Positions 26,026-58,100 of a stretch of 64,000 bases of DNA are shown one piece after another. The stretch is from Pseudosporangium ferrugineum (GTDB lineage: Bacteria > Actinomycetota > Actinomycetes > Mycobacteriales > Micromonosporaceae). Position 1 is the first letter of the stretch. Each line of letters opens with the position of its first letter. A program made the translations under genes and the position numbers. Location of the stretch: positions 1 through 64,000 of the forward strand of contig NZ_PVZG01000020.1 in NCBI RefSeq assembly GCF_003002065.1, read 5' to 3'. Below the pieces are notes generated by a model that worked only from the letters and a program-made list of their open reading frames with translations, did not search any database and had not been told where the DNA came from.

Positions 26026-26208
26026 TTACGGCGTGGGTGAGGGGGGTTTGGCCGGTGCCCCGTCCGGTGCGGCCGCGGCGAGGGTGGCGCGGAAGTGGTC
26101 GAGGATGCGTAGCCGTCCGCGTCGATGTCGCACCGCCCCCGCCCATCGCTGTCCCAGCTTGCCGCGGACAGCGGCGACGGCGTCCTGCGGGGTGATGAGG
26201 GTGCTCAT
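26026..26208 (-). pseudogene. Truncated type I Wadjet jetD (first ~60 codons only)
   Basis: ATG 26208 overlaps the stop of the type I jetC (ATGA), the normal place for jetD. The first ~26 residues (ITPQDAVAAVRGKLGQRWA) look like the start of the DUF3322 domain. The frame then becomes Arg/Pro-rich and stops at codon 61, whereas full JetD is about 380-400 aa with a Toprim (DUF2220) domain. Nothing resembling that Toprim motif occurs before the SEC-C gene. In another frame, the 19 codons ending at a TGA near 25997 read LTHAVTQLVRVVAREFR and may be a remnant of a gene end, consistent with an internal deletion. Confidence 0.65.
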
Positions 26209-29200
26209 GCGTCCGGGAGTCCGACCAGGAGCTTCGCCCAGGAGCGGCCCTGGGTGTTCTTGAGGATCACGTACTCCGCGTCCACGTGCGGTTCGATCGC
26301 GCTGTGCTTGTCGTTCGGGGCTCCGATGATCAGCTGGAAGCCCAGTCCCCGCCAGGCTCCGATGGCGCGGCCGGTGAAATGGGCGTCTGCCTTGATCAGC
26401 GCCTCGTCGAGGAAGACCGGGGCGTAGCGGGGGCGGGCGGCGCCCGCGTCGCCCAGTTGGTATCGCAGGGCGGCGCCGACGATGAAGGCGACGAGTTCCT
26501 GGGACTCGCCGCCCGACTTCTCGCCGATGTGGTCGTAGACGGCGACGTGCTTGCCGTCGAGGTCGATCTTCTCGGCGCTGATCCGGACGTGGTTGCGTAT
26601 GTCGACGAGGTCGGCGAAGTCGGGGGCGGTGCGGCGGATACGGTCGATGACCTTGACCATCCGGTGGTAGGCGCGTTCCCGGTCGTCCTCCGTCACCGCC
26701 TTGTCGATGAGGGCGCGCACGTCGCGCAGTTCCTTGCGGAAGCGGGCGCGGGCCGTGGAGTGGCTCTCCTGGGGGTCGATGCGCAGCCGGTGTCCGTCGT
26801 CGGCGAACGGCAGGCCGGCGAGGATGCGGTTGACCGGGTCGATCCGGTCGCGGATCTCCCGTACGGCGGCGGCCAGCTCGCTGTCCAGGCCGGTCAGGTC
26901 GTTGCCGGACAGGTTGAGCAGGCTGTCGCGCCACTCGGTCTCCAGCTCGTGCAGGCCGCTGGTCTCCAGGTCGGTGAGCAGGCGGTCGAAGTCGCGGTAG
27001 GAGGCGTCCGGGTCGATGCCGAGGTTGGGGTTCGGCCAGCGTTCGAGGAAGGTCGAGAAGGTGTCGTGCAGCGCCTTCCTCGACCGGCCGATCGACTCCG
27101 CCGCGGAGCGCCGGTCGGCGTCGACCCGCTCGGCGGCGCGTTTCACACCCGCGTCGAACTGGGCGAGCACCTCCGCCGGGCCGGCGCCCTCCGCGTCCCT
27201 GTCGAAGAGGGTCTCCAGGTAGTCCCGGTGCTCGGGGCTGAGGTCGATCCCTGAGTCCTCGGCCCTGTCGAGCGCCAGCTGGGCGCTGTCCACCTCGTCG
27301 ACGATCGACGCCCAGGATTCACCGACCTTGGTCACCATGTCCTTCTGCCGCCCGACGCGTTCGGTCAGGTCCCTGACCTGGCGCTTGAGGGCGTCCAGGT
27401 CGCGCTGCAGCCGATCGATCTCCGGGTTGCCGGCCCGGATCTCCGCCAGGACGCGGTTCCAGCGGTCCTGCTCCGCAAGGACCGCGTCGACATCCACCTG
27501 CTTCCACGACAGCTCGGTCAGGATCTGGTACGCCGTACGCCGGGCCTCAGTCGCGTTGAGGTTCGCCTCCGCCCTCTCGACCCCCGCGGTGGCGGCGTCG
27601 AGGCGCTCACGCGTCCGGCCGATCCGGGTCTCGAGGCCGGCGAGCGTCCTGCTGTTCGAGAAGCCGAGGACGTTGGCCCGGCCGTGGCCGCCGTGCGCGC
27701 CCCGGCCGCCCTCCGAGGTCTGTCCGGTGATCGTGAGTGCCTTGGAATACTGCGGGAGCAGCCTCGGGGTGTCGACACAGACGAAGGCGAACCGGCGGGC
27801 GAGTTCGCCCTTGAGCCAGGCGGTGAACGGCGACGGCCGGTAGTCGAGCCGGCCGGGCAGGGTCTTGCCGTCGAGCCCGGCCTCGTCGCGCTGCCCGGTG
27901 CGGACGCCCTCGAACTGGATGCGCCGCGCGGTCGGCACCGCGTTGATCGCCTCCCGGAACGCGTTCAACCGGCCGATGTCGATCAGGATCCGGGTGGCGA
28001 ATCCGCCGAGCGCCAGGTTGAACGCCTCGCGCCACGGCTCGAACTCCGTCCGTACCTCGATCAGCTCGCCGACGAACGGCAGGTCATCGGGGCTGAGGCC
28101 GGCGGCGTCGGCCAGCGCCGCGCGAGCGGCGTGCAGGTCGGCCGGGATGTTCCCCCGGCGGGCCCTGGCCGCGTCGCGCTCGGCGCGCAGGCCCGCCAGC
28201 TCGCGCTCGGCGTCCTTCTTCTCCGCCATCGCCGCGGCGTACGCCTGCTGAGCGGTCCGCCGGGCGTCGACGTCGGCCACCGAGCGGTGCGCCGTCTCGA
28301 CCAGCGCGGCGAAGTCGTCACCGGTCGAGACCGAGGCCCCGATCGTGTCCAGCACCCTGTCCAGCCGCTCCCGGGCCTGCCCGACCTCGCCCAGCCGCCG
28401 TTCCACGCCGCGGAGCTCCCGCTGGGCGGTCTCCAGGCGGTCGCCACCGGAGGCGCGGATCGTGTCGGCGATCCCGTCGTGCCGCGCCTCGGCCGCCTCG
28501 GCCAGGGCGCGGGTCTCCGCGAGCTCGGCCTGGGCCCGGCGGTGCCGCTGATCCAGGTCCTGCTCCGCCGAGCGCAACAGGTCGAGCCGGCGTTGATGAC
28601 GCCACAGCGCGGCGGGCGAGGCCGCATCGGCGAACGAGCCGATCTCGTCGATCGACCGCAACCGGTCCACCGCGTCGTCGATGGTGCGCCGGTGCTCGCG
28701 GATCGGGGTCAGCGCCTTCACCTGCCGGCGGGCGGTGATCATCCGGGCGCGGGTGCCGGACAACTCGTCGAACTGCTGCACCACCGCGTCCGCGGTGGCG
28801 AGCGTGGCCGGCTCCTCCAGGACCATCGTCTTGTACAGGGCGTCGACCGTGGTGATCTGCTGGCCGGCCTGGATCCGCCCGAGCAACGCGATCGCCTTGT
28901 GACCGTCGCCGGCGGCGCCGATGCCGAGCGTGGTGTGCAGGCGCGCGGTGAATTCCCGGTCGGTGTCGCTCCAGGTCAGGCCGGTTGCCACGACGTCGGC
29001 GCGGGCGAACTTGCGGCTCGCGGGGCCTTCCAGCGTCCGCAGCTGATATGCCTGGTCACAGGTGGCGCGGACCGCCACGACGTCGTCCAGGTTGCGGGCC
29101 GACGACGGCACGTACCAGGCCCGCAGCGCGGTGAACTCGGCGCCGGTGTGGTCGACCCAGGTCATCGCGATGGCCGACCACGTGTCGCGGCCGTCGCCGC

Positions 29201-29543
29201 GCAGCACCCGCAGCTTCGTCTCGCCGCCGGCGCGGGACTCGTCGAGCTTGCCACGCGCGTACGAGAGGACGTTGCGCTGGTCCTTGCCCCGGGGCCGGCC
29301 GACCACGCCGCCGTTGGACGCCCCGTTGAAGGGGGTGGTGTGCGGCATCAGCAACGCGATGTACGAGTCCATCAGCGTCGACTTGCCCGATCCGGAGCCT
29401 CCGCTCAGCAGCGTCGCACCCGGCGCGAGCCGCAGGTGGTGGTAGCCGTCGTAGCCGCCCCAGTTGACCAGTTGCAGGTCCCGCGCGACCCACTGCTGAC
29501 CCCGCGATGCCGCCGGGACCAGCCCGAACAGCGTGTCGATCAT
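26205..29543 (-). CDS. jetC: Wadjet type I JetC, SMC-like ATPase
   Basis: This is a 1112-aa protein starting at ATG 29543, 2 nt after the jetB stop. Walker A is GGSGSGKST (48-56). Coiled coils cover ~220-420 and ~560-870, with a hinge region between. The C-terminal head has the signature EKSGGESQELVAF and Walker B APVFLDEALIKAD. This matches the COG4913-like SMC of the DUF3375/DUF4194 set. Its partner jetD is destroyed, so the complex could still extrude or bind DNA but not cut through its own nuclease. Confidence 0.88.
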   Translation of the reverse strand: MIDTLFGLVPAASRGQQWVARDLQLVNWGGYDGYHHLRLAPGATLLSGGSGSGKSTLMDSYIALLMPHTTPFNGASNGGVVGRPRGKDQRNVLSYARGKLDESRAGGETKLRVLRGDGRDTWSAIAMTWVDHTGAEFTALRAWYVPSSARNLDDVVAVRATCDQAYQLRTLEGPASRKFARADVVATGLTWSDTDREFTARLHTTLGIGAAGDGHKAIALLGRIQAGQQITTVDALYKTMVLEEPATLATADAVVQQFDELSGTRARMITARRQVKALTPIREHRRTIDDAVDRLRSIDEIGSFADAASPAALWRHQRRLDLLRSAEQDLDQRHRRAQAELAETRALAEAAEARHDGIADTIRASGGDRLETAQRELRGVERRLGEVGQARERLDRVLDTIGASVSTGDDFAALVETAHRSVADVDARRTAQQAYAAAMAEKKDAERELAGLRAERDAARARRGNIPADLHAARAALADAAGLSPDDLPFVGELIEVRTEFEPWREAFNLALGGFATRILIDIGRLNAFREAINAVPTARRIQFEGVRTGQRDEAGLDGKTLPGRLDYRPSPFTAWLKGELARRFAFVCVDTPRLLPQYSKALTITGQTSEGGRGAHGGHGRANVLGFSNSRTLAGLETRIGRTRERLDAATAGVERAEANLNATEARRTAYQILTELSWKQVDVDAVLAEQDRWNRVLAEIRAGNPEIDRLQRDLDALKRQVRDLTERVGRQKDMVTKVGESWASIVDEVDSAQLALDRAEDSGIDLSPEHRDYLETLFDRDAEGAGPAEVLAQFDAGVKRAAERVDADRRSAAESIGRSRKALHDTFSTFLERWPNPNLGIDPDASYRDFDRLLTDLETSGLHELETEWRDSLLNLSGNDLTGLDSELAAAVREIRDRIDPVNRILAGLPFADDGHRLRIDPQESHSTARARFRKELRDVRALIDKAVTEDDRERAYHRMVKVIDRIRRTAPDFADLVDIRNHVRISAEKIDLDGKHVAVYDHIGEKSGGESQELVAFIVGAALRYQLGDAGAARPRYAPVFLDEALIKADAHFTGRAIGAWRGLGFQLIIGAPNDKHSAIEPHVDAEYVILKNTQGRSWAKLLVGLPDA

Positions 29544-29545
29544 GC

Positions 29546-30208
29546 TCACGCGGTGGCCTCGTTCCGTTCGCGCAGCCACCGGTCCAGCTCGGCGAGCTTC
29601 TCCGTGCTCAGCACGACCTCCACCATCGGGGTGATCCTGTACCGGCCCGCGGACTCCTCGGTGAGCAGCCCCTCGGTGACCAGCCGCTGCACCGCGTTGC
29701 GTACCTCCTGCTGGCGCCTGGCCAGGTTGTGGTCGTGCGGGTCGAAGTACGTCAGCACGGTCTGCTCCAGCTCCTCGATGTCGACCCGCGCGGACGTCTC
29801 GCCCGTGCCGTGTTCCCGCTGGAAGACCGTGCGGAGGTGGACCAGGACCAGGGTCTCGGCCCGGTTGTACGGGTCGTCCTTGAGCAGGATCGGCACGTCC
29901 AGCTCCACGGAACGGACCTGCTGCTTGTACGCGACGCCGCGGTCGTGGTCGACCACCAGACGGACGAACAGGTCGTGCATCCGCGATTCGATGATCTGCT
30001 GGTTCTCCAGCAACGTGCGCCAGTACGCCGGGTTCTTCTCGGCGAGCAGGAACTTGCGCCGTAACAACTGGACCAGCACCCGGCGTACGTCCGCCTCCAG
30101 CGTGCCCGCGTCGCCGGCGAACAGCTCGGCCGGATCCTCCTCCATCGGGACCGGGTCGATGAACCCGGCCGCCGGCCAGTCGTCGCCGGTCCCGTCCGGC
30201 TCAGTCAT
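29546..30208 (-). CDS. jetB: Wadjet type I JetB, DUF4194
   Basis: This is a 220-aa protein from ATG 30208 (GGGAG 8 nt upstream); a GTG two codons earlier is possible. It overlaps the jetA stop. Winged-helix-rich with [19 protein letters not shown] and a [17 protein letters not shown] segment, as in DUF4194 kite proteins. It links the kleisin JetA to the SMC JetC. Confidence 0.85.
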
Positions 30209-31706
30209 CGTCACCGCTCCCGTCCACGCGCGCCGGATTCGCCGTCACCACACCGCCCAGAGCGAACCGTCTCCGGGTCCGGTCCGGTCGCACCGCCTCG
30301 ACCACCGCGACCTCGGTCGTCTCGGTCATCCCGGCGCCGTGGGCGACCTCCAGCAGGCCGAGCAGGTCGACCGGTCGCCGGATCTCCTCGTCCGCCGCAC
30401 GGAACGCGGCCACCACGTCGACGGCCACCGCCCCGTCGGCGAACGCCTCCAGGTGTGCGCGCAACTCGGCGTACCGGGGTCCGCCCCACGCCCGGGTGTC
30501 CGCGGCGGGCAGGTCGTCGGACCCGTCCCAGTCCCGCAGCGGCGCCGGCGGCTGCGGTGGCCGCGGGTCGCTCGTCCGCTGGCGCAGGTGTCCGACGTCG
30601 GCGACCGGCAGGCGGCGCAGCGGCTCGACGGCCTCGCCGCGGCGGGAGCCGGGAACCCACCGGTGCAGGCCCGACATCACGTCCCTCAGCAGCTCGTCCA
30701 CCTGGCGGTCCCGCATCGGGTCGTGGTTGCGGACCTGGGTGGTGATGACGTGCGACGCCTGCCGCTGGGCGGCCAGCACCTCCTTGACCCCCTGTTCGAT
30801 CCGCCGGGAGATCTCGGTCAGCTCGCGCCGCTGCTGCTGCGGCAGCAGCTCGGTGAACCGATGCCGCAGCACCGTACGCAGCCGGTCCCACAGGCCGTCG
30901 ATCTGCGCCGGGTCGCCGATCAGGCGCAGCGCCCCGGCGAAGGCGCGGCCCTCCGGCGTCGCGTCCAGGATCCGCCGGCCGCGGGCGAGGTATTCGCGCA
31001 GCACCTCACCGGTGGGCCGCACGTCGTGCCGCAACTCCGCGACGACGTCCCGCTGGATGGCCTTGATCGACTCGGCCACGCGGGCGAAGTCGGCGGGCAG
31101 CTCCCGCGCCAGGTGCAGCACGTTCTCGGCCGCCTCGAGCAGTTGCTCGTCGTCGACCGTCTCGACGGCGCCACCCTTCTCGAGCCGGGTCAGCTCCCTC
31201 TGCCGCTGCTGGATCTCCTCGTGCAGGCGCACCATCCGGGACATCAGGTCCGGATCGGCGTCCTGCGCCAGCCGCTCGATCGCCTCCAGCAACGTCCTGA
31301 CCCGCGACTCCGACACCCGCGTACGCGTTCCGCCGACCCGCCCGGCGACCTCGAGCGCCCCGACGCCGTACGCCGAGAGCCGGTAGACCTCGGCGTCGTC
31401 GTCGGCGGAAACCTGCCGCACCAGCCATCCCGCCTGCACCCACTGCCGGCAGAGATCACGCGCGGTGCCCGCGGGCAGCGGCTGGTTGTCCTCGTCGCCG
31501 TAGCCGGCGGCCCGCAACTGGTCGAGGGCGTCGTTGATCTCCGCGTGCGCGTCCGCCACCGCGACCGCCGGGCGCTCGGCGGTGAAGACCATCGCCAGCA
31601 CCGTCACCACGAACGGCGCGTGCGTCTGGTGCAGCAGCGCGAGCATCGGATTCTGGAACGCCCGGAGCGCTCCCTGGTAAGCGCCTTCGACACCTCGGGT
31701 AGCCAT
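30201..31706 (-). CDS. jetA: Wadjet type I JetA, DUF3375
   Basis: This is a 501-aa protein; I prefer ATG 31706 to an in-frame TTG three codons upstream. The N-terminus has [16 protein letters not shown] and [20 protein letters not shown], and the middle has the long helical segment [17 protein letters not shown], as in DUF3375 kleisin-like proteins. It is the first gene of the type I Wadjet operon. Confidence 0.85.
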
Positions 31707-31810
31707 CAGGGCCAAAGCCTACGATGCTGCTCCGAGCCGGAGGCCCGGCGGTAGCCCGGCCCGGACCGGGGGCCCGAGATCGCCGGGACCTCCCGAAACG
31801 TGAGCGTGCC

Positions 31811-31930: not shown

Positions 31931-31959
31931 GTTCATGGGGCGCGGGCGCGCATGGTGAA

Positions 31960-31986
31960 GCCCGGGGACATGGCCAGTCCCCGGGC
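31960..31986 (-). terminator. Perfect 10-bp hairpin ending the tRNA-like RNA locus
   Basis: On the plus strand GCCCGGGGAC and GTCCCCGGGC pair perfectly around a 7-nt loop. It lies 8 bp beyond the outer helix of the second tRNA-like module, so it probably terminates the minus-strand transcript from the 32349-33080 gene. Confidence 0.7.
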
Positions 31987-31994
31987 CTCCGCTT

Positions 31995-32153
31995 ACCACT
32001 GAATTGCACACACCAGCACGTTTAAGAGTGTGGATCATTCGTGAGGACATCGGGTTTTGCCTTTAAACTACCGCCGCTCGAAGCGCGGCGGACCGGACTT
32101 GAACCGGCATCCGCTGTCATCGTCCGTACCCGGTCGACCTGGTGTTCAGTGGT
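31995..32153 (-). ncRNA. Permuted tRNA-like module 2
   Basis: Read on the minus strand, elements come in the order: leader (32153-32109), T-arm GCCGGTTCAAGTCCGGT (32108-32092), 3' acceptor strand CCGCCGC (32091-32085), 7-nt spacer, 5' acceptor strand GCGGCGG (32077-32071), TA, D-arm with GTTT/AAAC stem and GG in the loop (32068-32054), and a trailer. The acceptor strands are fully complementary. Leader ACCACTGAA/CACCAG (32153-32139) pairs with trailer CTGGTG and TTCAGTGGT (32016-32011, 32003-31995), a 15-bp clamp with a 7-nt bulge. The anticodon-stem region is only weakly paired (CCG/CGG, GTCC/GGAC). A normal tRNA would have the 5' half first. Function is unknown. Confidence 0.65.
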
Positions 32154-32168
32154 GAATGCTGACGTTGG

Positions 32169-32281
32169 AGCGAAGAATCTGAGTTTCATACCGGCTGCCT
32201 CTGCCAGTTGGGCTACCCCCGCGTGTGGTGCGGGGGGCGGGGCTCGAACCCGCACTGGGACCGGTGGATTCAGCTTCAGCT
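32169..32281 (-). ncRNA. Permuted tRNA-like module 1
   Basis: On the minus strand: leader with repeated AGCTGA units, strand ACCGG (32265-32261), 7-nt variable region, T-arm GCGGGTTCGAGCCCCGC (32253-32237), 3' acceptor strand CCCCCGC (32236-32230), encoded ACCA, CAC spacer, 5' acceptor strand GCGGGGG (32222-32216), TA, D-arm GCCCAACTGGCAGAGGC, and strand CCGGT (32194-32190). Both the acceptor (7 bp) and the anticodon-like stem CCGGT/ACCGG (5 bp) pair perfectly. Beyond these, leader GAATC, GAA and AGC pair with trailer GATTC-TTC-GCT (32179-32169). The halves are therefore joined at the acceptor end and open at the anticodon, the reverse of a normal tRNA. The trailer has ATGAA where an anticodon loop would begin. 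Confidence 0.7.
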
Positions 32282-32296
32282 TCAGCTGTCAGCTTT

Positions 32297-32336
32297 GCGC
32301 CGGGTTTCCCGGCGCACCCCCGCGCTCCCACGGGGG
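32297..32336 (-). ncRNA. Two hairpins preceding the tRNA-like modules
   Basis: Starting 12 nt after the stop codon of the upstream protein gene, CCCCCG/CGGGGG (32336-32317) forms a 6-bp hairpin. It is followed at once by GCGCCGGG-AAA-CCCGGCGC (32315-32297), a perfect 8-bp hairpin. Neither has a T tract. They could be a partial terminator, a stability element or the 5' domain of the RNA. Confidence 0.6.
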
Positions 32337-32348
32337 AATCGGTGACGG

Positions 32349-33080
32349 CTACCCGAAGAGGTAGCCGAAGACGGCCGCACCGACCCGCTGGTCGGCGGCC
32401 TCGGTGTTGTTGGCCTCCTCGCGGGCGAACTTGACCGCGGTCTGCAGGGCCTGCACCCGGTCGAGGATCTCGTTGACCCGCTTGGCCGGCAGCGCGCCGG
32501 AGAACTTGACGGTCGTCCAGTAGCCGACGGTGACGTCCTCGTAGTAGACCTCGACCTGGGCCGGGTGCTTCTCGGTGGCCTCGGCCTTCACGTGGTTGCG
32601 CGGCACCTTCTTGGTGCGGTTGGTCCGCACCGCCTCGGTGCGCCAGCTGTCCGTCGAGTCGTCCCGCTGCCACGACTCGGCCGCGTCCAGCACCGGGAGC
32701 TTCTTGACGAACGTGTGCAGGTCGGCGAGCTGCTTCTCGAGGAACAGCAGGTACGTCACCGGGACCTGGGCGGCGATCGTGCGGCCGTCGACCACGACGT
32801 CGGCCCGCGCCGTACAGTTCGTCCAGTCCTTCGTCGCGGTGATGTCGAAGAGCCGGGTCAGCGTCCCGGACACCTCGCGCAGGATCTCCTCGGCCTTGAT
32901 CTGCACCCGCGTCGACTCGGGGGGCAGCTGCTCGCCCTCCTCGTCCTTCGGCTGGTACGTCCGGGAGATGCCGGCCAGCGGACCGGTCTTCTGCACGGCG
33001 TGGTGGGCGTCGCTCAGCTCGGCGAACGCCTTGCTCTTGACGCCCTTCTCGACGGCGATGATCTGGTTGAGCTTCGGCAC
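32349..33080 (-). CDS. Conserved-looking 243-aa hypothetical protein upstream of the tRNA-like RNA
   Basis: The gene starts at GTG 33080 with AAGGGG 7 nt upstream. No signal peptide, membrane segment or known catalytic motif is visible. The protein is rich in Lys, Val and Thr, with motifs ISRTYQPKDEEGEQLPPES, LFDITATKDWTNC, VPVTYLLFLEKQLADLHTFV and VPRNHVKAEATEKHPAQVE. The sequence looks like a widely conserved actinobacterial family (I believe DUF7873, to be checked). The basic KKVPRNHVKAEATEKH stretch could contact RNA. The tRNA-like RNA starts 12 nt after its stop on the same strand with no terminator T tract between, so protein and RNA are probably one transcription unit. Confidence 0.8.
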   Translation of the reverse strand: MPKLNQIIAVEKGVKSKAFAELSDAHHAVQKTGPLAGISRTYQPKDEEGEQLPPESTRVQIKAEEILREVSGTLTRLFDITATKDWTNCTARADVVVDGRTIAAQVPVTYLLFLEKQLADLHTFVKKLPVLDAAESWQRDDSTDSWRTEAVRTNRTKKVPRNHVKAEATEKHPAQVEVYYEDVTVGYWTTVKFSGALPAKRVNEILDRVQALQTAVKFAREEANNTEAADQRVGAAVFGYLFG

Positions 33081-52100: not shown

Positions 52101-55100
52101 CGGCAGCGAGACCGACGCCAGCACGCCCCTGCCCACCAGGTGTTCCTGCAACAGCCGGCTGCGCAGGCCGACCACCCGGGCGGCGTCGGCGAGGTCGATC
52201 TCACCGGCCACGTACGCCGCCGCGATCTCGCCCTGGCTCGAGCCCGTCACGGCCGCCGGCGTCACGCCCCACGACCGCCACACGGCCGCCAGCGACACCA
52301 TCACCGAGAACAGGGCCGGCTGCAGCACGTCGATGCGGGCCAGCGGCGGCGCGTCCGGCGCTCCCCGGATCACGTCCAGCACCGACCAGCCCAGCAACGC
52401 CTCGAACGCCGCCGAGCACGCCGTCAGTTCGGCTCGGAACACCGGCGAGGTCTCGAGCAGGTCGCGGCACATGCCCTCCCACTGGGAACCCTGGCCGGGG
52501 AAGACGAACACCACCTCGGCGTCGCCGCGGGCCACGCCGCGTACGACGTTCTCCGCGTCGGCGCCGGAGGCCAGCGCGGCCAGCCCGGCCCGTACGTCGC
52601 CGCCGACGACGACGGCCCGGTGGACGAGCGTGGCCCGCGTGGTGGCCAGGGAATAGCCGACGTCCGCCGGCCCGGACGTGGCCACCGGCCCGTCGAGGGC
52701 GGCGGCCAGCGCGGCCAGGGCCGGGTCGCTCCTGGCCGACAGCGCAAGGGCGACGACCTCGTCCGCCGGTGCCTGCGGCGCGACGGTCGCCGCGGCCGGC
52801 GGCTCCTCGACGATGACGTGGGCGTTGGTGCCCGACAGCCCGAACGAGGAGACGCCGAACCGGCGCGGGTGCCCCGTCTCCGGCCACGGCCGGGCCTCGG
52901 TCAGCAGCCGCACGTCGCCGGCGGTCCAGTCGACGTGCGGCGTCGGCTCGGCGACGTGCAGGGTCCGGGGCAGCACCCCGTGCCGCATCGCCAGCACCAT
53001 CTTCATCACCCCGGCCACGCCGGCCGCGGCCTGGGCGTGGCCGATGTTGGACTTCAGCGAGCCCAGCCACAGCGGACCGGCGTCGCCGCGGTCCCGGCCG
53101 TACGTGGCCAGGATCGCCTGCGCCTCGATGGGGTCGCCCAGCTTGGTGCCGGTGCCGTGGGCCTCGACCGCGTCCACGTCGGCGACGGTCATCCCGGCGT
53201 CGGCCAGCGCCGCCTGGATCACCCGCTGCTGCGACGGGCCGTTCGGCGCGGACAGGCCGTTGGAGGCACCGTCCTGGTTGACCGCGGTGCCCCGGATGAC
53301 GGCCAGCACCTGGTGACCGTGGCGTTCGGCGTCGGACAGCCGCTCGAGCAGCACCATGCCGATGCCCTCGGAGAGCACGGTGCCGTCGGCGTCGCCGGAG
53401 AACGCCCGGCACACCCCGTCGGCGGCCAGGCCCTGCTGGCGGCTGAACTCGACGTAGCTCAGCGGCGAGGACATCGTGGTCACGCCGCCGGTCAGCGCCA
53501 GCGGGCACTCGCCGCGGCGCAGGGCCTGCACGGCCAGGTGGATCGCCGACAGCGACGAGGAACAGGCCGTGTCGACGGTCATCGCCGGGCCCTCCAGGCC
53601 GAACACGTACGCCACCCGGCCGGACATGACGCTGGCGGCGTTGCCGACGCCCGCGTAACCGCCGGTGAGGTCGTCGCCCTGCAGGACATGGGCGGCGTAG
53701 TCCTGGATGTTGCTGCCCACGAACACGCCCGTCCGGCTGCCGCGCAGCGACGCGGGATCGATGCCGGCCCGCTCCAGCAGCTCCCAGGAGGTCTCCAGCA
53801 GCAGCCGCTGCTGCGGGTCGATGATCAGCGCCTCCCGCGGGTTGATCCCGAAGAACGCCGGGTCGAAGCCGGCGAACCCGTCGAGGAAGCCGCCGCGCCA
53901 CACGTAGGACTTGCCGGCGCCGCGTTCCGGGTCGTACCAGCTCCGGTCCCAGCCGCGGTCGGACGGGAACGGGCCGACCGCGTCCCGGCCCTCGTCGACC
54001 AGCTGCCACAGCTGCTCGGGCGAGGTCACCCCGCCGGGGAACCGGCAGCTCATGGCCACGATCGCGATCGGCTCGTCGGCGGTCGCGGCGACCGGGGCCG
54101 GGCCGGCCGGCCGCTCGTCCTCGCCGAGCACCGCGGACCGGAGGAAGCCGGCCAGCGCCTGCGGGGTGGGGTAGTCGAACACCAGTGTGGACGGCAGCCG
54201 GAAGCCGGCGGCCGCGCTCAGCCGGTTGCGGACCTCGACCGCGGTCAGCGAGTCGACGCCCAGATCCTTGAACTGATGCTTGGGGCCGACCGCTTCGGCG
54301 TCCGGGAAGCCGAGGACCGTCGCCACGTGCTCGCGGACGAGGGTGAGCAGCTCCCGGTGGCGCTCGGCGGCGGACAGGCCGGAGAGCCGTTGCCGCAGCG
54401 GGGATTCCGCCTCGGTGGACTCCGGTTCGAGCAGGTGCCGTGCTTCCGGGACGCCGGACAGCAGCGGACGCGGCCCGGCCGAGGTGAAGACGGGCACGAA
54501 CCGGTCCCAGTCGACCTCGGCCACGGTCACGTCGGTCTCGTCGTGGGCGACGGCCTGCCGCAGTGCCTCGCAGGCCACCGCTGGACGCAGGAAGCCGGTG
54601 CCGCGCAGGCGATGCTCGGCCTGGTCCCCGCCGAAGTCCCACAGCCCCCAGGCGATCGACAGGGCCCGCAGCCCTCGTGCCCGCCGCCGCCGGGCCAGGG
54701 CGTCGAGGTGGGCGTTCGCGGCGGCGTAGGCGGCGTGGTCGGCGCTGCCCCACACGCCTACCACCGACGAGAACAGCACGAAGGCGTCCAGGTCGTGGTC
54801 GAGGAGGTCGTCGAGGAGGTCGGCGACGCCCGCCTTGGTCGCGATCGTCTCGGCGAACTCCTCCCCGCTCAGCCCGGCGACCGGGGTGAGGCGCGCGAGG
54901 CCGGCGGCGTGGACCACGGCCCGGATCGGGGCGAAACTCTCCAGCATCGCCGACAGCTCGGCGCGGTCGGTGAGATCGCAGTCGACGACGCTGAGTTCGG
55001 TGCCGTGCTGCGCCAGGTCGGCGCGGAGTTCGTCCTGGCCGTCGCCGGCGCCGGCGAGCACGACGTGCTCCGCGCCCTCGCGCGACAGCCAGCGCGCGAC

Positions 55101-58100
55101 GTGCCGTGCCGCCGGGCCTCCGTCGCTGGTGACCAGCACCGTGCCGGCCGGTTGCCAGTCGCGGGTCGGGGGGACGGCGCCGAGCGGAGCCCGCCGCAAC
55201 CGCCGTACGTGGACCCGGCCCTCGCGGATGGCCACCTGGTCCTCGCCGCGGGCGTCCCCGAGGACGGCGCGCAGCAGGGAGAGCGCCTGCTCGTCGAGGG
55301 TGCCGGGCAGATCGACCAGCCCGCCCCACAGCTCCGGGTGCTCGAGGGCGACGACCCGGCCCAGGCCCCAGATCCGGGCCTGCTCCGGGCGTACGTTCTC
55401 GCCGTTCACCGACACCGCGCCCGAGGTCACGCACCACAACCGGGTGCCGCCGCCGGCCAGCGCCTGCGCGAGCGCCAGGACCTCCGGTGCCGGCAGCAGG
55501 GCCACGACGTTGTCGTGCCGGCGCAGCGCCGCACCGTCGATGCCGGAGGCCACCTCGGCGCCGAGGGCCCGCGAGATCGCCGCCGCCCGCTCGTCGCCCG
55601 GCGTGGCGAGGATCAGCCAGCTGCCCCCCGGCGCGGCCTCGGCGGCGACGGGAAGGGCGTCCCAGCCGATCCGGTACCGCAGGCCGTCGGCGAGGGACGG
55701 CCGCGCCGCGGTGCCGGCCTCCAGCCAGTAACGCCGGTGCTGGAAGGCGTACGTCGGCAGGTCGACGCCGCGGCCCTCGAACGGCCAGGTCACGTCGACG
55801 CCGCCGGCGTGCAGCTCGGCGGCGCTGTGCCGGAAGCGCTCCAGGCCGCCGTCGTCGCGGCGCAGCGTTCCGGTGGCCAGGGCCTCGATGCCGGCGGCCT
55901 CGGCGGTCTCCTGCACCGCGGTCGTCAGCACCGGATGGGGGCTCAGCTCGACGAAGGTCGTGTGCCCGTCCCGCAGCAGGGCATCGACGGTCTCGGAGAA
56001 CCGTACGGTTTGCCGCAGATTGCGGTACCAGTACCCGGCGTCGAAGGTCGAGGTGTCGGCCGGTTCCCCGGTCGTCGTGGACCGGAGCGGGATGTCCGCG
56101 GCCCTCGGCGTGATCGACGACAGGTCGGTCAGCAGCCGGTCCCGGATCGACTCGACCTGCTCGGAGTGCGAGGCGTAGTCGACCGGCATGCGGCGTACCC
56201 GGACCCCGGCCGGCTCCAGCTCGGCGTACAGCTCGTCGAGCGCCGCAGGTTCGCCGGAGACGACCACCGACGCCGGCCCGTTGACCGCCGCGACCGAGAT
56301 CCGCCCCTGCCAGCGGCGGAGCAGCGTTGTCACCTCGTCGACGTCCAGCGCCACCGACGTCATGCCGCCGCGCCCGGCCAGGTCCTCGGCGATGGCCCGG
56401 CTGCGCAGGATCACCACGGCCGCGGCGTCCTCGAGGCTGAGGGCGCCGGCCACGCACGCGGCGGCGATCTCGCCCTGGGAGGTGCCGACGACGACGTCCG
56501 GAGTGACGCCGTACGACCGCCACAGCGAGGCCAGCGACACCATCACCGCGAACAGCGCCGGCTGGACCACCTCGACCCGTTCCAGCATCGCCGGATCGGC
56601 CAGCACGTCCCGCAGCGACCAGTCGACCAGCCCGCCGAACGCCGCCTCGCACTCGGCCATCCGCTCGGCGAACACCGGCGAGGCGGCCATCAGCTCGACG
56701 GCCATGCCGGTCCACTGCGAGCCCTGGCCGGGGAAGACGAACACGGTCCTGCCCCGGTCCGGCGCCGCCGCGCCCCGGACCAGTCCGCCGGCCGGCCGGT
56801 CCTCGATCAGCGCGGCCAGCGCCGCCTCCCGGTCCTCGCCCAGCACCACGGCGCGGTGCTCGTGCTGGTCCCGGGTCGCGGCGAGCGAGTACGCGACGTC
56901 GGCGCCGGAGAGCGGGTGCGACCGCAGGTGGGCGAGCAGCCGCTCGGCCTGGGCCCGCAGCGCCGCCGGGGACCGGCCGGACAGCATCCAGGGCAGGGTG
57001 CCGTCGCCGCCGGACGCGGGCGTCACCGCTTCGGGCGCCTGCTCGATGATCACGTGGGCGTTCGTGCCGGAGATGCCGAACGCCGACACCCCGGCCCGCC
57101 GCGGCCGCCCGGTCTCGGGCCACGGCTGGGCCTCGGTCAGCAGCGACACCGCGCCGGAGGCCCAGTCCACGTGCGGGGTGGGCTCCTCGATGTGCAGGCT
57201 GCGGGGGAGCAGCCCGTGCCGCAGGGCCTGCACCATCTTGATCACGCCGGCCACCCCGGCGGCGGCCTGCGCGTGCCCGATGTTCGACTTCACCGATCCG
57301 ACCCACAGTGGACGGTCGGCCGGGCGGGCCTGCCCGTACACGGCGAGCAGCGCGGCGGCCTCGATCGGGTCGCCCAGCGTGGTGCCGGTGCCGTGGGCCT
57401 CCACGGCGTCGACGTCCGCGGGGGACAGGCCCGCGCTGTCCAGGGCGTCGCGGATCACCCGCTCCTGGGCCGGCCGGCTGGGCGCGCTCAGGCCGTTGGA
57501 CGCCCCGTCCTGGTTGATGGCGCTGCCGCGGATCACCGCCAGCACCCGGTGGCCGTGGCGTTCGGCGTCGGCCAGCCGCTCCAGCACGAGCACGCCGGCG
57601 CCCTCGCCCCAGGCCATGCCGTCCGCCGACGCGGCGAAGGACTTGCAGCGTCCGTCCGCGGCGAGCCCCCGCTGCCGGCTGAACTCGATGAACCCGCGGG
57701 CGGTGGACAGCACGGCCACCCCGCCGGCCAGCGCGAGCGTGCACTCCCCGGCCCGCAGCGACCGGGCGGCCAGGTGCAACGACACCAGCGAGGACGAGCA
57801 GGCGGTGTCCACGGTGATCGCCGGGCCCTCGAACCCGAAGGTGTACGCGATCCGGCCCGAGGCCACGCTCATCGCGTCGCCGGTGATCAGATAGCCGGAC
57901 ACCTCCTCGGCCACGTCCTGGTCGCGGAAGCCGTAGCCGGTGTAACACATGCCGACGAACACGCCGGTGCGGCTGCCCCGCAGCGTCGACGCCCGGATCC
58001 CGGCCCGCTCCAGCGCTTCCCACGACGTCTCGAGCAGTTGCCGCTGCTGCGGGTCCATGCCCAGCGCCTCGCGGGGCGAGATGCCGAAGAACTCCGCGTC

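Follow-up and report, generated by a model that had tools for sequence, protein, structure and literature searches.

Organization of the DUF7873 locus

The DNA analysed here, referred to as the window, comprises 64,000 nucleotides (nt) of contig NZ_PVZG01000020.1 of Pseudosporangium ferrugineum. On its minus strand lies a gene encoding a 243-residue protein of the family DUF7873 (PF25283), and direct reading of the sequence revealed a structured RNA of about 390 nt (window ~32345-31951) which begins just past the stop codon of this gene. The RNA contains two modules (heads 1 and 2), each consisting of a T-arm, an acceptor strand, a joint, the other acceptor strand and a D-arm, that is, in the order of a permuted tRNA; both are parts of one longer RNA. 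A preliminary description of the locus had reported these two permuted modules downstream of the gene, and their letters, their loops and the perfect pairing of the acceptor strands were all found as given there. In module 1, the T-stem is GCGGG/CCCGC (32253-32249/32241-32237) with the loop TTCGAGC, the 3′ acceptor strand CCCCCGC (32236-32230) pairs perfectly with the 5′ acceptor strand GCGGGGG (32222-32216), and the D-arm reads GCC-CAACTGGCAGA-GGC (32213-32197). Module 2 has the T-stem GCCGG/CCGGT with the loop TTCAAGT (32108-32092), the acceptor strands CCGCCGC (32091-32085) and GCGGCGG (32077-32071), again perfectly paired, and the D-arm GTTT-AAAGGCA-AAAC (32068-32054). ARAGORN predicted no tRNA and no transfer-messenger RNA (tmRNA) in the window.

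The modules are embedded in three domains preceded by two hairpins (Table 1). Hairpins similar to the latter are present at the equivalent position in Streptomyces and phage loci, and those of the window also form in single-sequence fold prediction. The body pairing of domain 1 was seen by eye, RNAalifold on alignment A5 not resolving it; a covariance model of domain 2 (R1, see below) matches domain 1 too, with 44.6 bits. Domain 3 had been described as a perfect hairpin terminator. The hairpin was confirmed; there is no U-tract 3′ of it in the window, and its loop has a consensus, YGGNYAY, which is kept across phages, the stem of about 12 bp varying freely in sequence. Because the U-tract is lacking and the 7-nt loop is conserved, domain 3 is regarded as a structural part of the RNA no less than as a terminator.

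Table 1. Features of the DUF7873 gene and of the RNA downstream of it
Feature	Position in window	Strand	Basis
DUF7873 (PF25283) gene, 243 amino acids, likely protein partner	32349..33080	-	Pfam E 7.5e-119, AlphaFold2, pN/pS
Two 5′ hairpins just past the stop codon: CCCCCG..CGGGGG (GAGC in loop) and GCGCCGGG..CCCGGCGC	32297..32336	-	sequence reading
Domain 1: conserved body GCTGA../CTCAGATTC..TCGCTCCA..GTCAGC, capped by module 1	32153..32296	-	alignment A5
Module 1, T-arm and 3′ acceptor strand	32230..32253	-	reading and A5 covariation
Module 1, joint ACCACAC (A73-CCA-CAC)	32223..32229	-	reading
Module 1, 5′ acceptor strand and tRNA-Leu-like D-arm	32197..32222	-	reading and tRNA comparison
Domain 2: outer helix ACACCAG/CTGGTGT, internal loop GGTCGACC/TTAAACG, clamp helix, module 2	32002..32152	-	alignment A4, model R1
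Module 2, T-arm and 3′ acceptor strand	32085..32108	-	reading and A4 covariation
Module 2, joint GCTTCGA	32078..32084	-	reading
Module 2, 5′ acceptor strand and D-arm	32054..32077	-	reading and A4 covariation
Domain 3: 12-bp hairpin, 7-nt loop TGGCCAT, flanks GTGGT/ACCAT	31958..31988	-	comparison with relatives

Conservation and covariation of the RNA

An initial scan of species genomes provided 80 DUF7873 loci from Actinoplanes, other Micromonosporaceae and Streptomyces. In the relatives that were read, the RNA is likewise located 3′ of DUF7873, in most of them complete with the two modules and with linkers and a closing hairpin like those of the window, and none has a pair of ordinary tRNAs at the locus from which the modules could be deletion products. 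When the 900 nt following DUF7873 in 191 loci were scanned for the permuted topology, each locus gave 2.03 modules on average; the corresponding values were 0.16 for dinucleotide-shuffled sequence, 0.27 for the opposite strand and 0.36 for the region upstream of the gene.

Domain 2 was aligned from 32 diverse phage and chromosomal loci, the window among them (alignment A4). RNAalifold predicted 33 pairs, of which 29 show a double compensatory change; 95.5% of the cells are paired, versus 72.5% in shuffled and at most 45.7% in slid alignments, and the covariation score is 0.684 versus 0.242 and at most 0.141, respectively. The outer helix, the clamp helix, the T-stem, the acceptor stem and the D-stem all covary. 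The outer helix, for instance, is ACACCAG/CTGGTGT in the window, AATGGCAA/TTGTCATT in one Gordonia phage and AAGGCAA/TTGCCTT in another. The internal loop between outer helix and clamp, AUCGACC/UUAAACG, is conserved at the sequence level, and the 15-bp clamp formerly ascribed to module 2 has to be redrawn as two covarying helices split by this loop. For module 1 (alignment A5), 99.6% of the cells are paired with a covariation score of 0.535, versus 0.132 after shuffling. Across the loci there are 46 distinct acceptor stems in head 1 and 69 in head 2, with 6.66 and 6.41 Watson-Crick pairs out of 7.

Linkage of the RNA to DUF7873

The covariance model R1 was built from the 32 rows of A4 and scored 130.4 bits (E 1.5e-38) on the window, which is itself one of these rows. 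R1 was searched over 201 Micromonosporaceae genomes and its matches were compared with the places of DUF7873 genes. The cross-check started from 105 DUF7873 places, and 10 partnerless ones were excluded, their genomes being outside the RNA search. At 94 of the 95 comparable places the RNA follows the gene on the same strand at a distance of no more than 800 nt; the sole exception is a partial DUF7873 gene (G458). Conversely, when the 97 strongest R1 matches down to about 48 bits were compared, one per place, 94 were found to adjoin DUF7873, and the remaining three are Y RNA/TROVE loci. Second matches to module 1 of the same locus were excluded from the 97, as was a Y RNA-type place near 49 bits (G464). 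That a conserved RNA paired with DUF7873 is real we consider practically certain.

Resemblance of the heads to tRNAs

The heads were compared with a library of 408 distinct tRNAs from the analysed genomes and phages, of which 13% are tRNA-Leu. They were assigned as head 1 or 2 by order only, since a choice by D-stem would be circular. The tRNA nearest to head 1 is a tRNA-Leu for 79 of 88 distinct sequences (75.5 when ties are shared out); as a benchmark, real tRNAs recover their own amino acid from the library in 83 of 150 cases. The signal resides in the D-arm, which alone gives Leu in 81.6 of 88; the T-arm gives 15.1 of 88, and neither T-arm nor variable loop has a special likeness to tRNA-Leu. 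A73 is present in 72 of 88 first heads. Head 1 copies the D-arm and A73 of tRNA-Leu. Head 2 is mixed, with Gly nearest in 33 of 82 and U73 in 61.

The D-arm of head 1 in the window differs by one letter from that of the host's tRNA-Leu(TAG) (L296, G000:C21:717-790), a tRNA with a short variable loop, unlike class II leucine tRNAs. Head 1 of cyanophage Pam2 carries the canonical Leu D-arm, TGGCGGAATTGGTAGACGCG, letter for letter as in E. coli leuV. Since the Pam2 D-arm equals that of leuV and the D-arm of the window is close to that of its own host, the mimicry seems to track the type of host.

The DUF7873 protein

The window protein matches DUF7873 with 396.3 bits (Pfam cut-off 27). The ratio of nonsynonymous to synonymous polymorphism (pN/pS) is about 0.1 among Actinoplanes DUF7873 genes, therefore the gene is under purifying selection. 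An AlphaFold2 model from 72 sequences has a mean predicted local distance difference test (pLDDT) score of 94 and a predicted template modelling (pTM) score of 0.69. Besides two long helices, the model shows a central sheet, which includes a long hairpin of conserved, basic sequence (RTKKVPRNHVKAEATDKHPAQ), and another long helix close to the C-terminus. Basic stretches such as RTKKVPRNHVK are conserved, and no catalytic motif was recognised. We take DUF7873 to be a putative RNA-binding scaffold.

Searches of NCBIfam, PADLOC and PHROGs with the window protein returned no match; its distant phage relatives match uncharacterised PHROGs families weakly (best 0.0018). A PDB sequence search gave nothing significant, and Foldseek gave no match to the model at E<=0.001. 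The top VIA-align match was the uncharacterised protein 3kdq_A, with Z 10 at a root-mean-square deviation of 8, possibly just a common arrangement. A literature search, with the lists of a 2014 Y RNA survey outside the comparison, found no mention of DUF7873.

Phage copies and evolution

DUF7873 was found in 73 to 79 phage records, including Vibrio, Gordonia, Rhizobium, Klebsiella, Serratia, Arthrobacter, Pseudanabaena, Rhodococcus, Microcoleus and Lak phages, and in at least 418 viral contigs. Several of the phage genes sit within tRNA arrays, and the RNA could be read 3′ of DUF7873 in most phage loci examined. In a protein tree of 61 sequences, 13 chromosomal rows, most of the chromosomal copies sampled, form one clade (support 98/90) nested among phage sequences, and the Nonomuraea DUF7873 falls outside this clade. 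Such a tree is as would be expected for a phage module retained by chromosomes, with the direction of transfer unproved because most deep forks are unresolved.

Two phage loci have further RNAs. In a Microcoleus phage (L141; 4950-5159, 6803-6937), a HEARO RNA followed by a large open reading frame is located between DUF7873 and a later R1 match of 33 bits, an arrangement that looks as if a mobile element had split the RNA. In Gordonia phage Phendrix (L135; 2072-2600), a phage tmRNA (Rfam, 89 bits) is located in the same tRNA array.

Proposed function and alternative explanations

The reading that we prefer, and to which we give about an even chance, is that the locus encodes a ribonucleoprotein (RNP) of DUF7873 and the two-headed RNA acting in a manner like that of Y RNA and Rsr. 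DUF7873 would bind the RNA at its conserved body, perhaps at the AUCGACC/UUAAACG internal loop. The heads, as drawn, keep the elbow of T-loop and D-loop and the acceptor stem and dispense with the anticodon arm; they may dock an enzyme that reads tRNAs by elbow and acceptor, be it one that processes, modifies or degrades tRNAs or an aminoacyl-tRNA synthetase independent of the anticodon. The module is common in large, tRNA-rich phages and has been retained by actinomycete chromosomes. This reading builds on the structure, covariation and distribution of the RNA, its linkage to DUF7873, the absence of TROVE/Rsr from this genome, the phage homologues in tRNA arrays, the chromosomal clade among phage sequences, the likeness of head 1 to tRNA-Leu and the purifying selection on the gene, all of which are shown, and it has a precedent in YrlA, which binds one protein by its stem and another by its head (PMC8394870).

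Several observations weigh against this reading. That DUF7873 binds the RNA is something we only infer, and its fold matched no known RNA-binding family in Foldseek or VIA-align. In one genome (G461; L256, 2594-2686) the RNA is intact while only 30 residues of DUF7873 are left next to it; conversely, a pair of phage contigs (L162/L163) and, in the R1 search, a Lak phage (L224) carry DUF7873 without detectable RNA. Finally, several loci are without head 1, so that it is not strictly required: it is absent or swapped for a short hairpin in, for example, L014, L023, L037, L051, L064 and L074, with head 2 and the body kept, and is absent also from L097 and L098.

A possible though doubtful alternative is that the joints are cut by RNase P and 3′ processing, in the way of pre-tRNAs and of two-piece permuted tmRNA, leaving pieces held together by the helices with free CCA ends, that is, an adaptor resembling tmRNA without a tag frame. 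In that case leucyl-tRNA synthetase, for which the anticodon is dispensable in bacteria, might charge head 1. The Leu D-arm and A73 of head 1, and the identity of the Pam2 D-arm with that of E. coli tRNA-Leu, would suit this. So would the joints: C74 is present in 86% of head 1 joints and 96% of head 2 joints, and CCA is encoded in about 40% and 28% of the distinct ones, respectively. Viral second heads have U at position -1 in 55 of 70 and CCA after N73 in 38 of 70, but CCA is rare in chromosomal second heads (7 of 88) and U-1 is not preferred there. Joint length ranges from 4 to 185 nt, and in the viral locus L099 a complete tRNA-Thr(tgt) gene lies within the module 1 joint, between the acceptor strands, about 103-175 nt past DUF7873. 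Most joints, however, are of 6-9 nt, like closed loops, and those of Y RNA heads, which are described as closed tRNA mimics, are comparably short. The T-arm and variable loop of head 1 are not especially Leu-like, and the G-U pair at 3-70, the identity element of tmRNA, occurs in only 2 of 98 first and 3 of 113 second heads. In sum, the joints fit processing of the RNase P type, at least in phages, and those of 6-9 nt could be plain loops.

Equally tentative is the fuller picture of an RNP spread by phages, both heads of which are opened at the acceptor by tRNA processing, with head 1 charged by leucyl-tRNA synthetase or engaging another enzyme of tRNA-Leu, and with DUF7873 in the role of SmpB or Rsr. 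If true, translation or tRNA metabolism would be the process on which the RNP acts, in infected cells and later, once domesticated, in actinomycetes.

It is unlikely that the RNA belongs to the Y RNA/YrlA family as a diverged form that has exchanged Rsr for DUF7873. YrlA, a tRNA mimic, binds Rsr with its stem and PNPase with its tRNA-like head (PMC8394870), and phages, too, are suspected of carrying Y RNAs and Rsr (PMC12282133). The DUF7873 RNA has an identical permuted head topology, with a helix replacing the anticodon arm and the gene of a putative partner adjoining, and it too occurs in bacteria and phages. In a permissive Rfam scan, YrlA (RF02553) matched module 1 with 29.5 bits (E 1.9e-4) and module 2 with 21.1 bits, and reached at best 37.1 bits in phage loci, all far below the gathering score of 69. 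Bacterial Y RNAs have one head and 90-150 nt (PMC8394870); the DUF7873 RNA has two heads, about 390 nt and three domains, its head 1 is Leu-like, and its putative partner is DUF7873 in place of Rsr.

The two families are also found apart. No TROVE/Rsr (PF05731) gene is present in the genome of the window, and 53 of the 94 Micromonosporaceae genomes with DUF7873 are without TROVE; both occur together in 41, and TROVE alone in 20. The weaker R1 matches in this family of bacteria are single-head RNAs, most of which adjoin TROVE (Rsr/Ro60) genes, four of the proteins being confirmed by Pfam; since they are mostly beside TROVE genes, they are taken to be ordinary bacterial Y RNAs. Their bodies (GGUUACUUC...) are unlike that of the DUF7873 RNA, and their heads (12 modules) have no Leu bias. 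The preliminary description knew of no bacterial tRNA pair of this kind linked to a protein gene; these Y RNAs beside Rsr/TROVE genes, and YrlA as a tRNA mimic with Rsr as partner (PMC8394870, PMC7790460), provide a precedent. Tandem Y RNA-type permuted modules were seen at two places: adjoining a TROVE gene in L255 (2834-3076), and about 4 kb upstream of DUF7873 in L226 (492-721), where a pattern search found no TROVE gene.

We think it quite improbable that the RNA merely regulates the DUF7873 mRNA from its 3′ end, serving autoregulation or stability, and is not an RNP component. Its nearly constant position directly 3′ of the gene on the same strand and the basic stretches of the protein would agree with such a role, but the RNA is unusually elaborate for a 3′ untranslated region, which would have no need of tRNA-like or Leu-like heads, and it is intact in G461, where the gene is a remnant.

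A decoy, mimicking anticodon-nicked tRNA or inhibiting defence nucleases that attack tRNAs, is very unlikely. It would be in keeping with the phage tRNA arrays, but the RNA is kept in actinomycete chromosomes, PADLOC assigns the protein to no defence family, and the heads offer no anticodon arm. As bait for an anticodon nuclease, a role once proposed for this locus, the RNA lacks the anticodon loop, and YrlA is left uncut by the Salmonella anticodon nuclease (PMC7790460); competitive inhibition, which has been proposed for YrlA (PMC7790460), is still conceivable. The proposal that the RNA is open at the anticodon and is ligated or circularised is likewise not supported, as the module ends enter a long-range structure that is conserved, and joining them would restore no anticodon arm.

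An origin by chance or as remnants of two ordinary tRNAs, the latter already argued against in the preliminary description, is ruled out by the covariation, which includes compensatory changes in the acceptor stems and the clamp, by the distribution and by the scanner controls, and no point in its favour was found. None of the three outcomes that this description had named as contrary to its view appeared: the stems covary, the homologues retain the RNA (94 of 95 comparable places), and the relatives that were read show no ordinary tRNA pair at the locus.

Comparison with other RNAs

Permuted tRNA genes of algae and archaea give rise, through circularised precursors, to working tRNAs with an anticodon arm. 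The modules of the DUF7873 RNA share with them the order of the halves, the 3′ half preceding the 5′ half, but have no anticodon arm, and their ends pair in variable helices which continue into conserved structure.

Two-piece permuted tmRNA, with SmpB, is similar in that a long helix replaces the anticodon arm, a joint connects the permuted acceptor strands and there is a protein partner, a putative one in the present case. Unlike tmRNA, the DUF7873 RNA has two heads, lacks the alanine identity G3-U70 and is missed by ARAGORN, and its putative partner is not SmpB; the Rfam tmRNA models had no match in the window.

GOLLD and ROOL are large structured phage RNAs, often near tRNA islands (PMC12286853); both are reported to be RNA-only cages, and ROOL to have no known protein partners. 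The DUF7873 RNA is also a large structured RNA of phages, often near tRNAs, but differs in structure and size, in its tie to DUF7873 and in its tRNA-like heads. GOLLD and ROOL were unmatched at the locus (gathering score or E<=10) and in eight phage loci (E<=5).

Few bacterial RNPs with tRNA mimics are known, namely tmRNA-SmpB and Y RNA-Rsr, and the DUF7873 RNA, a class missing from Rfam 15, would add a two-headed one with an unrelated protein. The DUF7873 family extends from Klebsiella and Lak jumbo phages (the RNA being undetected in Lak) to Streptomyces chromosomes; a large DUF family would thereby gain a concrete function to look for, and the benefit of tRNA mimicry to phages would become testable.

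Other features of the window

Directly behind the RNA, genes similar to JetA, JetB and JetC (DUF3375, DUF4194 and SbcC/MukB-like) are located on the minus strand at 26205-31715, and probably constitute a Wadjet plasmid-defence operon. A link between the RNA and these genes was considered and rejected, as JetA, JetB and JetC were found at none of the other 80 loci. The Rfam scan of the window at gathering score yielded two matches only, both to ASpks and both away from the RNA (53052-53126 and 57288-57362), perhaps inside polyketide synthase genes.
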